From: Kiritimatiellia bacterium
GTDB taxonomy: Bacteria > Verrucomicrobiota > Kiritimatiellia > RFP12 > UBA1067
Direction: 5' to 3'
DNA: 42,795 nucleotides
Assembly: GCA_017613085.1 (NCBI GenBank)
Contig: JAGAEL010000039.1
Location: forward strand, 1-42,795
Every line of letters begins with the position of its first letter. The first letter of the stretch is position 1. This document shows positions 1,590 to 42,640 of this stretch, one piece after another. Made by a program: the position numbers and the translations under genes. The notes beneath the pieces are model-generated. The model saw only the letters and a program-made list of their open reading frames with translations. It did no database searches and was not told the DNA's origin.

Positions 1590-1745
1590 TGTCGAGGGAG
1601 GGACGCGCTTCGTCGCGTCCGTTCCCATGCGGCGCGTGGGGACACGCGCCCTCCCGCACGACAGCCGACAGCCGACAGCCGACAGGCGCCATCCGGTCGC
1701 GACGGGACGCGACCCTCCCGCTCTTTTCTCTGCGTGAGATCATTT
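1590..1745. repeat. modular palindromic repeat, copy A (inverted relative to copies at 8.6 and 42.5 kb)
   Basis: A non-coding GC-rich block. In order it has an imperfect inverted segment of GGGAGGGACGCG type, a perfect hairpin with GGCGCGTG (1631-1638) pairing CACGCGCC (1643-1650) over loop GGGA, a 7-nt tandem GCCGACA repeated three times, and a GTCGCGAC/GGGACGCGACC segment. It ends in a boundary that, on the minus strand, reads ATCTCACGC-AGAG. The same boundary and modules recur at 8571-8778 and 42391-42640. Together with the AT-richer stretch 1746-1910, this fills the gap before the small lipoprotein, and I see no gene in it. Confidence 0.8.
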
Positions 1746-6203: not shown

Positions 6204-8528
6204 ATGAAGACCAGGATATCGTTCCTTATTTGTGCCGCGTTTGTTCTGGTTTTGTCTGTTTGTGCCGATTCATCCGATTCGTTCGCGTCGCAGCGGGCGG
6301 AGTTCGCGAAGTATTACAAACAGATCACCGGCAGGGACGCGCCCGAGGGCATGGTGCGGTTTGCCATCGATCCGAAGGTGTCGAAATCGGGCAGGGATGC
6401 GTACAGGATTGTGTCAATCGAAGGGGAGGGTCGCGCTTTGTCGCGGCCACTCGCCGAAAATGGCCGCGACGAAGCGCGGCCCTCCCGCGTCGCCATCACC
6501 GGTTCCAACCTGAGAAGTGTCTGGTACGGTCTCTACGACCTCCTTGAGCGGCGCGGCGGATGCCATTGGTTCTGGGACGGCGACGTGGTTCCGAAGAAGG
6601 AATCCATCGATCTCTCGAATCTTGACGTCCACGAGGAGGCGCACTTCGAGTACCGCGCCATCCGCTATTTCGCGCATCGAGGTCTTACGCGCTTCCAAGC
6701 GGAACAGTGGGGACCGGAGGACTGGAAACGTGAGATCGACTGGATTCTCAAACGCCGCCTCAATACGTTCATGCTCCGTATCGGTCAGGACGACCTTTTC
6801 CAGCGGGCGTTTCCCGACGTGTGCAAGTACCCCGATCCGTCGAAGCGGCTTCCCGGCGCGACCTCCAGCTACAACGACCGTACGCTCTTCTGGAGCCTGC
6901 AGTATCGCGGCAAGCTGCGCCAGAATATTCAGAAGTACGGATTCGAGCGCGGACTCATGGTGCCAGAGGATTTCGGCACCATGACGCACTGGTATTCGCG
7001 CACGCCCGAGGACTGGCTCGCGAACATGAAGCCGAAGTTCCTGCCGCAGGCGCACGGTTCGGCCGCCGGACGTAACGGCCTCGTCTGGGACATCCGCGAC
7101 GACAAGTGGGCGGAGGCGTACTGGAAGCTGACAAAGACGGCGGTGGAGCAGTACGGAGCGGGGGCTCCGGATCCGAGGCTTCTCCACACCATCGGACTGA
7201 GTGAACGCGGCGTGTACAAGGAACGGGACAAGAACATCGCACTCAAGATCGAAGCTCTTCGGAAATTCCTCGCCCTCGCTCGACGCGACTACCCTGACGC
7301 GAAGGTTCTGTTATCCGGCTGGGACTTCTACGGCGGCTGGAAGGCGGACGAGGTGCGCGCGTTCCTGCCGACGCTCGACAAGAACCATGTGATCCTCTGG
7401 GACTACGAGGCGGATTGTCAGGAGGAAAGGGATACCTTCGTCGATTGGGATGTAATCGGAAAGTTTCCCTACACCTATTCGACCATCCTTGCGTTTGAGG
7501 CGGCGCTCGACGCACGGGCGGACTACAAGTTCTTTGAAAAGCGGCAGCGGCTCGTGCAGGACGATCCGATGTGCGTGGGTTGGATACACTGGCCGGAGTC
7601 GGCCCACACGGATACGTTCTTCCTTGACTTCTTTACCGTGAACGCCTGGGCGGACAAGCCGGTTCCGCATGAGAAGGTTCTGGATGCCTTCTGCGTCGGA
7701 CGCTACGGCGGGAACGCGGAATGGATGAAATCCGTCTGGTCGGATGTGCTGGATGCCTCTGCGTTGCGCCGCTGGGACGAGTATTCGGAATCGAATCTCA
7801 ACTGCGCCCAGCACCTGATTTATCACGGCCTGTTGAAGAAGGGTTACGACAAGCGTCCTACGAAGTGGGGACCTCCCGTCGCGAAGGCGATGACGGCATT
7901 GCGGCGTCTTGAGGACGTGCCGTGGGATGATGCGTTCATCCGGCGGGACACGATCGATATCGTGCGCATGGTTCTCGACCGGTTGATCGTCCTGAAGATC
8001 GACGAACTGGGATGCGCTCTCGCCGCATGGCGCAATGGCAGGGATGACGGTGCGTCACTTGTTGCCCGCGCACATGAACTGGCTTTGCTCTTTGATCGCC
8101 TTGCCGATGTTCTTGCGCTGCACACCGACTACTCCCTCTGGGAGTCCTACCAGCGGCTTGACGCGATCGAGAAAATCCAGAATCCGAATTTCTCCAAGAC
8201 GCTCTTCGAGAATGGCGTCAACCAATACTGCCTGAGCCACCAATATGAGGCAATGCGGTACGTGGTCGCGCCGGTTGCGGCGGAGCTGGCGGAGCGGATC
8301 GCCAAGGCCGTGGCGTCCGGCGACCGTAAGGTCGGGTTCTCCGCCCGTCCAGTATTTGAGAAAATCCGCCAGGACGCGAAGGCGAAGCCGCTTGAATCGC
8401 TCAAGCCGGCTACGCCGCGAACCAAAGAGGAGTTCCGTAAGGTGATACGGAGTTTGTCGAAGGAGGACAGGGAAGGGGTATGCAGGGCGTATCCGCGAAT
8501 CCTGCAAAAGCGGCAAGAACGGGACTAG
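6204..8528 (+). CDS. secreted GH89-like glycoside hydrolase (alpha-N-acetylglucosaminidase family), with in-frame repeat insertion
   Basis: A 774-residue protein. The signal peptide is residues 1-21. An N-terminal beta domain follows and ends in VAITGSNLRSVWYGLYDLL and GGCHWFW. A TIM barrel starts at about residue 150, with W-x-x-EDWKREIDW and the NxxxLRIGQ segment typical of NAGLU-type enzymes. Glu334 (GLSERG) and Glu465 (HWPES) are the likely catalytic pair by position. The C-terminal helical domain contains NQYCLSHQYEAMRYV. GH89 enzymes remove terminal alpha-GlcNAc from host glycans or polysaccharides; here the match is divergent and DUF4838-type proteins are the alternative. Start chosen at 6204 because of GGAAGGAAG 7 nt upstream and the signal peptide. 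Residues 74-94 come from a 63-bp palindromic repeat in an N-domain loop. Confidence 0.7.
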   Translation: MKTRISFLICAAFVLVLSVCADSSDSFASQRAEFAKYYKQITGRDAPEGMVRFAIDPKVSKSGRDAYRIVSIEGEGRALSRPLAENGRDEARPSRVAITGSNLRSVWYGLYDLLERRGGCHWFWDGDVVPKKESIDLSNLDVHEEAHFEYRAIRYFAHRGLTRFQAEQWGPEDWKREIDWILKRRLNTFMLRIGQDDLFQRAFPDVCKYPDPSKRLPGATSSYNDRTLFWSLQYRGKLRQNIQKYGFERGLMVPEDFGTMTHWYSRTPEDWLANMKPKFLPQAHGSAAGRNGLVWDIRDDKWAEAYWKLTKTAVEQYGAGAPDPRLLHTIGLSERGVYKERDKNIALKIEALRKFLALARRDYPDAKVLLSGWDFYGGWKADEVRAFLPTLDKNHVILWDYEADCQEERDTFVDWDVIGKFPYTYSTILAFEAALDARADYKFFEKRQRLVQDDPMCVGWIHWPESAHTDTFFLDFFTVNAWADKPVPHEKVLDAFCVGRYGGNAEWMKSVWSDVLDASALRRWDEYSESNLNCAQHLIYHGLLKKGYDKRPTKWGPPVAKAMTALRRLEDVPWDDAFIRRDTIDIVRMVLDRLIVLKIDELGCALAAWRNGRDDGASLVARAHELALLFDRLADVLALHTDYSLWESYQRLDAIEKIQNPNFSKTLFENGVNQYCLSHQYEAMRYVVAPVAAELAERIAKAVASGDRKVGFSARPVFEKIRQDAKAKPLESLKPATPRTKEEFRKVIRSLSKEDREGVCRAYPRILQKRQERD
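6424..6486. repeat. 63-bp palindromic repeat inserted in frame in the GH89-like gene (copy B)
   Basis: The left arm 6424-6449 and right arm 6461-6486 are complementary at 24 of 26 positions, and the other two are G-U pairs in RNA. The 11-nt loop is 6450-6460. The arms begin GGGAGGGTCGCG and end CGCGGCCCTCCC, as in the intergenic copies at 1.6, 8.7 and 42.5 kb. The length is 21 codons exactly, so the frame is kept. The encoded peptide is Arg/Glu/Ala-rich (GRALSRPL, GRDEARPS) and falls between two predicted beta-strands. Confidence 0.85.
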
Positions 8529-8570: not shown

Positions 8571-8778
8571 CGTTCCCGTGAGCGGCGCGTGGGGACACGG
8601 AAGAAAGGGACAAACGAGACAAACAGGACAATCATTGTCCTTGTTGTCGTTTTATCTCACGCGGAGGAAAGAGCGGGAGGGTCGCGCCCCGTCGCGACCG
8701 GGTGGCGGCTGTCTGACGTCGGGTGTCGCCTGTCGTGCGGCGCGTGAGGACACGCGCCCTCCCGTGCGTGACATCCCC
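8571..8778. repeat. modular palindromic repeat, copy C
   Basis: A fragment with GGCGCGTGGGGACACG (from about 8583) is followed by a GACAA-block dyad array (8609-8648), the boundary ATCTCACGC-GGAG, GGGAGGGTCGCGCC/GTCGCGACC, a CTGTC/GTCGGGTGTC stretch, and the perfect hairpin GGCGCGTG (8739-8746), AGGA loop, CACGCGCC (8751-8758). It fills most of the 377-bp gap between the GH89-like gene and mutS, and no gene is seen. The remainder, 8779-8866, shows no clear structure. Confidence 0.8.
8609..8648. repeat. dyad array of GACAA blocks inside copy C
   Basis: GACAA(A/T) blocks start at 8609, 8618 and 8627, 9 bp apart. The last two are mirrored by ATTGTC (8634-8639) and GTTGTC (8643-8648) about one centre, including a perfect GGACAAT-c-ATTGTCC. 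A larger version lies at 42654-42709. Confidence 0.6.
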
Positions 8779-42390: not shown

Positions 42391-42640
42391 CTCACGCGGA
42401 GGGAGGGTCGCGCCCCGTCGCGCCCTCCCGTGCGTGACGTCTCAGGGGAGGGACGGGCTTCGTCCCGTCCTTTCCCATACGGCGCGTGAGGACACGCGCC
42501 CTCCCGTGCGTGACGTCCCCTGGGAGGGTCGCGCCCCGTCGCGACCGGGTGGCGGCTGTCGGGTGTCGCCCGTCGTGCGGGGGCATATTCAGGCCGGGGA
42601 ACGGACGCGACGGGGCGCGTCCCTCCCGATCTCCGTGCCT
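42391..42640. repeat. modular palindromic repeat, copy D (largest)
   Basis: Starts with the boundary CTCACGC-GGAG, then GGGAGGGTCGCGCC, CCCTCCCGTGCGTGACGT, a GGACGGGCTTCGTCCCGTCC inverted unit, the perfect hairpin GGCGCGTG (42481-42488), AGGA loop, CACGCGCC (42493-42500), a second GTGCGTGACGT, a second GGGAGGGTCGCGCC, a CTGTCGGGTGTCGCC stretch and an inverted GGACGCGACGGGGCGCGTCC. No gene is seen in 42330-42795. Confidence 0.85.

Follow-up and report, generated by a model that had tools for sequence, protein, structure and literature searches.

The window, by which we mean the whole analysed stretch of 42,795 nt, belongs to a rumen Kiritimatiellae MAG (G000; 2.43 Mb, 206 contigs, 67% complete) and contains a gene for a GH89-like glycosidase, within whose N-terminal part a palindromic repeat is found in frame. 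Copies of the same repeat occur elsewhere in the window, and the features referred to below are the following:

6204..8528, + strand: gene for a GH89-like (alpha-N-acetylglucosaminidase-like) glycosidase, 774 aa, with an N-terminal signal-like sequence
6417..6491, + strand: expanded loop, codons 72-96 (IEGEGRALSRPLAENGRDEARPSRV), from strand 66-72 to strand 95-100 of the protein
6424..6486, no strand: two opposed REP-like units of family A, together a REPIN-like element of 21 codons in frame
6424..6449, + strand: left REP-like unit, tag GGGAGG and hairpin arm (unit boundaries from 67 copies)
6450..6460, no strand: spacer or terminal loop of the pair, 11 nt
6461..6486, - strand: right REP-like unit, in the opposite orientation
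1596..1620, + strand: intergenic A-family copy, 3' of tRNA-Val
1695..1719, - strand: A-family copy, inverted partner of 1596..1620
8675..8699, + strand: intergenic A-family copy, 3' of the host gene
42401..42425, + strand: A-family copy, in a cluster
42522..42546, + strand: A-family copy, in a cluster
42603..42627, - strand: A-family copy, inverted partner of the copy at 42522

The palindromic element and its host gene

The element at 6424-6486 starts 220 nt past the ATG, its 63 nt correspond to residues 74-94 of the protein, and the ORF stays open across it, no stop codon being found within the element in any of the six frames examined. Its arms are 26 nt each, with Watson-Crick pairing at 24/26 positions (92%) and two G-U pairs, and 11 nt lie between them. 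When the window was scanned for inverted repeats (26-nt arms, at most two mismatches, spacer 0-40), this was the sole one of its quality, and ten first-order Markov resamples of the window yielded 0 comparable repeats. The minimum free energy computed for the RNA is -57.4 kcal/mol, against -26 +/- 2.9 for dinucleotide shuffles (z -10.75). A preliminary description of this DNA had claimed a 63-bp palindrome with such arms, an in-frame addition of exactly 21 codons and a very stable hairpin about 220 nt past the start codon, and all of these hold, the last as a computed fold. A search of 6424-6486 for terminator-like or promoter-like sites found none, and no target-site duplication was established for the insert.

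The host protein is matched by the Pfam NAGLU TIM-barrel family (PF05089; 39.7 bits, 3.7e-10, cut-off 25.5), and the top Foldseek matches of its AlphaFold model are human NAGLU (4xwh) and CpGH89 (2vca/4a4a), with prob 1.00 and TMq 0.67-0.70. Because of these family and fold matches, and despite a low sequence identity to solved GH89 members (~15% for human NAGLU and Clostridium perfringens GH89), the name 'GH89-like' is fair, alpha-N-acetylglucosaminidase activity being putative. Omega outside the loop is 0.13-0.15 in comparisons with four orthologues, the host gene therefore being under purifying selection.

In the AlphaFold model the insert appears as a disordered loop (pLDDT <50 at residues 76-90) with strands 66-72 and 95-100 on either side, while in the model of an insert-free orthologue, 82% identical, the strands 48-53 and 58-62 are joined by a 4-residue turn. 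The window loop has 25 residues as opposed to 4-5 in insert-free orthologues, a net gain of 20-21 codons. Alignment with homologues lacking the insert, proposed earlier as a check, was possible with L033/L064 (82% identical; KS-GTPCV-TITG) and L034/L062 (TS-GESV-VITG). A position in a surface loop between two N-terminal strands, as first suggested from the sequence, is supported by these models.

It could be argued that an intergenic repeat was misjoined into the gene during assembly or annotation, or that the gene is a pseudogene, since an incomplete MAG in 206 contigs is at issue and assemblies are broken by short repeats. This is extremely improbable, as the insert lies mid-contig in an intact frame of 774 codons with the low omega given above, and the pattern described below recurs in independent assemblies from several studies.

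Family A copies in the genome and in other genes

The repeat to which the arms belong, referred to here as family A, is dispersed throughout the source genome: a 22-nt arm pattern has 63 exact matches in G000, and a 25-nt arm pattern allowing up to three mismatches has 273 matches in 2.43 Mb, the reversed control giving 0 in both cases. In the related genome G001, 394 A-family arm matches were found (control 0). Alignment of 67 copies gave a unit with a sharp left boundary and the tag GGGAGG, followed by the hairpin GNCGCGCYYCGTCGCGNCC (G-N-CGCGC-YYC-GTCGCG-N-CC); conservation is 97-100% in the stem and 87-96% in the unpaired tag. The variable stem pair N-N, compared in 48 copies, is AT in 25, TA in 11 and CG in 5, and its being of one of these compensating kinds in 41/48 indicates that conservation concerns the hairpin itself. 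Judged by its sequence, the A unit is built as a REP unit is, and 6424-6486, with its two opposed units, is REPIN-like. Inverted pairs in the window are 6424+/6461-, 1596+/1695- and 42522+/42603-; many further A copies are single or tandem, not inverted pairs. At the end of the window, 42401-42627 is a BIME-like cluster of A-family units, at least four in number and pointing both ways.

Two other assignments of family A were ruled out: that to the GTAG REP super-family, given the tag GGGAGG, and that to the Rickettsia palindromic elements, given the length of 63 bp (where ~150 bp or a CGTC terminus would be expected), the different sequence and tag and the Kiritimatiellae host.

The preliminary description had placed arm copies elsewhere in the window, and these are found at 1.6, 8.7 and 42.4-42.6 kb; its proposal of a whole-genome search for further in-frame palindromes likewise proved productive, copies not being confined to intergenic DNA. 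For this purpose 35 separate clusters of G000 copies were sampled from search listings, not at random, and in-frame claims were limited to genes with a Pfam match or homologues behind them. Five of these 35 clusters, that of the window gene included, are in frame in such genes. Beyond the window gene, at least five in-frame A copies are present in four G000 genes:

L103: paralogue of the window gene, A copy at the same loop, in a shortened version
L018: GH123-type protein, in-frame A copy
L146: GH88-type protein, in-frame A copy
L025: MmeI-like restriction-modification protein, two A copies, in yet another reading frame

The two copies in the MmeI-like gene lie ~225 bp apart (L025:1500-1820), and an N-terminal stretch of the same protein, ESVKCKM...TLHFTLSTLHS, resembles another in-frame inverted repeat. 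An alpha/beta hydrolase (L019, DATKRVPP) is a possible sixth in-frame case in G000. Long ORFs over many other G000 copies (e.g., L010, L017, L022, L151) were discarded: in this GC-rich DNA they were taken to be intergenic or antisense frames.

Inserts at the same loop in homologous proteins

Relatives of the host gene were obtained from rumen and gut Kiritimatiellae genomes, every genome compared being a MAG. Among the 47 distinct homologues aligned, the loop is 4-7 aa long in 19, 9-12 in three and 14-44 in 25, and the long loops are translated repeats of at least seven families (A-G), most of which are dispersed in the same genomes; the class labels were set by us from peptide and DNA motifs. 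Family A is the insert of the window genome; hairpins located immediately 3' of GTAG make up B, C, D and F; E consists of GGGGTGGCGGGCNTC units, one to three in tandem; and G is ACAGCAAGCGNACAACAGCAAG. Compound inserts also occur: L077 has E+G, L042/L050 have G+F and L071 has as many as three E units. The inserts of L068, L093, L075 and L036 could be assigned to none of the families. No distant homologue carrying the same peptide as the window protein was found.

Family C has 45 matches dispersed in G055 and 14 in G003, family F has 108/102/130 in G028/G055/G095, family E has 100 in G095 and 46 in G055, and family G has 98/61/82 in G028/G055/G095; B and D are of low copy number with few matches each, and all controls gave 0. 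Of the repeat matches within the homologous genes, 48 are in the loop and 8 outside it, these 8 all being repeat G and all lying at a single second site (aligned residue ~610). This recurrent invasion of the loop by different repeat families is the larger finding and goes beyond what had been noted before.

At the second site (~607-613; e.g., L033, L034, L063, L077, L082) eight homologues, belonging to four genomes, have the G repeat ACAGCAAGCGTACAACAGCAAG, translated as TASVQQQ, and in other homologues a third kind of repeat, CKVESVKCK.., is found there.

On a maximum-likelihood tree of 40 proteins from which the loop had been excised, insert class changes 18 times, against a mean of 20.2 for shuffled labels. 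Close orthologues differ, as with L039 (G028, F) versus L076 (G095, E) and L085 (G028, C) versus L077 (G095, E), and the orthologue group of the window gene includes A, B, C and E inserts together with two insert-free members. Pairs of inserts from the same genome, on the other hand, are of the same class in 15 cases out of 35, where shuffling gave a mean of 3.2 and none of 20000 shuffles reached as high a value. Insert family therefore tracks host genome and not gene lineage. Local abundance matches the insert family only roughly, G055 having 102 F matches and no F in the loop.

One reading of the sharing within genomes is that in each genome a single paralogue received an insertion, which gene conversion then copied to other paralogues. 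L063 and L071, which come from one genome, share 97% identity over the 30 nt 5' of the loop and 63-83% further out; the G000 paralogues (the window gene and L103) have the unusual flanks ATYGAAG and CCGCGTC in common, so their two inserts may be one insertion copied between genes; and five C inserts have an identical 63-nt layout. As a full explanation gene conversion is nevertheless somewhat unlikely. The upstream flanks of most same-genome, same-class pairs are at background likeness (0.70-0.87), the number of units varies between paralogues, several kinds of insert coexist within one genome (in G055 the loops contain C, D, E, unclassified inserts or none), and several unrelated families would still be required to enter one site. 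Gene conversion accounts for part of the same-genome class sharing.

To judge from sequence comparison, recurrence at one site is also seen in two further proteins, of the GH88 and GH123 types. At the insert site of the former (L146), two relatives are without insert and L155 (G028) has GGQQAYDNKAGGQQAYNNKGN; at that of the latter (L018), one relative has a short loop, the insert of L188 (G028) ends in the G-like peptide TTSVQQQ and that of L186 (G015) contains the F-like peptide AVAGRPP. These proteins bear on the suggestion that the transposase or an existing hairpin steers new elements to the loop, so that targeting rather than tolerance would be at work. The nested and compound inserts of L077, L042/L050 and L071 suggest that hairpins attract or breed hairpins, and the right flank GTCACCATCACCGGC is well conserved; the site is used, however, by different families with different tags, the start points of inserts vary by several codons, and the flanks in the two further proteins are unrelated, which makes targeting an unlikely explanation. 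Less likely again is a related reading in which the loop is a maintained docking site, where resident hairpins would attract, or be replaced by, the active REP family of each genome, through hairpin-to-hairpin replacement via RAYT or recombination. Were this the case, the loop would be a running record of repeat activity and would supply a lineage-specific peptide to a secreted enzyme family.

Inserts are not restricted to glycosidases: in relatives, AlaRS, Tex, RNase R and MutL have in-frame REPs of families C, E and F within or between their domains. The individual cases are L220, L224, L253 and L247, with in-frame REPs within AlaRS, Tex and RNase R domains and the MutL linker. In L243 and L251 (G095, G055), tandem 27-nt E-type units (ETPATPTMC repeated) are in frame within a long ORF, which is of GH2 type in L243. 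That inserts occur in AlaRS, Tex, RNase R and MutL, proteins not expected to diversify, weighs against the proposal that variable loop peptides are useful (for substrate range, surface contacts or avoiding recognition) and that palindromes are their raw material. That variation is strongly concentrated at a single site, in an enzyme of secreted type with numerous paralogues, would suit such an adaptive role, but ~40% of homologues have no insert and the loop is predicted to be disordered, and we consider the proposal very unlikely. The term 'domesticated', applied to the window element in the preliminary description, implies a use for which we found no evidence, and 'tolerated' is safer.

Proposed origin and relation to known systems

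Single-stranded REPs are cleaved and recombined by Y1/HUH transposases (TnpA_REP, RAYT) (PMC8266576). Y1_Tnp genes were present in 16 of the 17 genomes searched, at one to five per genome, and E copies adjoin Y1_Tnp in three of them (G004, G055, G095); in G004, which has just two exact E matches, one of them lies ~160 bp from the only Y1_Tnp. No A copies were found within ~1.5 kb of the single Y1_Tnp of G000 (L134), and a search for a link between family A and RAYT in G000 and its relatives gave none, except for one distant copy in G001. The clusters of E repeats next to Y1_Tnp in three genomes (L235, L249, L127/L250) are REPtron-like in appearance.

The explanation that we regard as highly probable is that REP-type palindromes insert widely, that only frame-preserving insertions in tolerant loops survive, and that one loop has been filled repeatedly. 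REP/REPIN elements would be mobilised by RAYT-type transposases of the Y1/HUH kind, inserting often and widely. An A-family REPIN-like pair, from a family with ~270 arm copies, has entered the beta-turn of the GH89-like enzyme. Since its 63 bp contain no stop in any frame, the protein has gained a surface loop, predicted to be disordered, and would have remained functional. Gene-breaking insertions would be removed, in-frame ones persisting in loops that tolerate extra residues, and as few protein sites tolerate 20-40 residues, repeated events at one loop may be expected. In relatives the same turn has been entered repeatedly by other dispersed families, whether GTAG-tagged (B, C, D, F) or of other types (E, G), so that what the loop contains turns over more quickly than the remainder of the gene and reflects the repeats present in the host genome. 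Some copies probably owe their spread to short gene conversion between paralogues.

The loop constitutes a natural replicated experiment on the entry of selfish palindromes into proteins, with many independent inserts at one position, close relatives without insert as controls, and paralogues within one genome. This makes it testable whether intragenic REPs are tolerated, targeted or useful, and whether RAYT activity adds coding sequence to bacteria. In-frame REPs are abundant in Kiritimatiellae, housekeeping genes included, and have to be reckoned with in annotation and in predicting the structures of these proteins.

The best-known in-frame palindromes are those of Rickettsia (RPEs), which are found in many unrelated genes without destroying them (PMC10969869). 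The likeness to RPEs pointed out in the preliminary description stands insofar as palindromic repeats here are also in frame in unrelated genes that are not destroyed; the name does not, an inverted REP pair (REPIN-like) being a better fit. RPEs are longer (~150 bp according to PMC10969869, compared with 63 bp for the window element) and known from Rickettsia, and no description of one site filled by unrelated families was found for RPEs, which were compared via a summary (PMC10969869). REPINs, inverted pairs of REPs whose movement is attributed to RAYTs, are similar to the element in having opposed units, one long hairpin, a high copy number and few Y1 transposase genes (PMC3116915). They differ in being typically extragenic, whereas here one encodes a loop, and RAYT linkage is seen for family E, not A.

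The intragenic occurrence of REPs outside Rickettsia had already been reported, many species having GTAG/CGTC-tagged REPs inside ORFs, the PVC bacterium Opitutus terrae among them (PMC3733652). Such palindromes are single or dimeric and mostly intergenic, some being in frame and 20-30 codons long; their hosts include tRNA synthetases and DNA repair genes, and in recB of two Xanthomonas species different REPs occur at about the same site (PMC3733652). The present elements are likewise short tagged palindromes, some of them in frame in genes. A search of the literature on Kiritimatiellae palindromic repeats returned nothing relevant. In contrast with the cases in PMC3733652, at least seven families occupy one loop here, across many genomes and paralogues and with a class that tracks the genome; two more proteins show recurrent inserts; and the tag of the window family is GGGAGG, not GTAG/CGTC. 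Intragenic REPs as such are therefore already known, and what is new, on the literature surveyed, is the scale of recurrence at one loop together with its genome-linked turnover.
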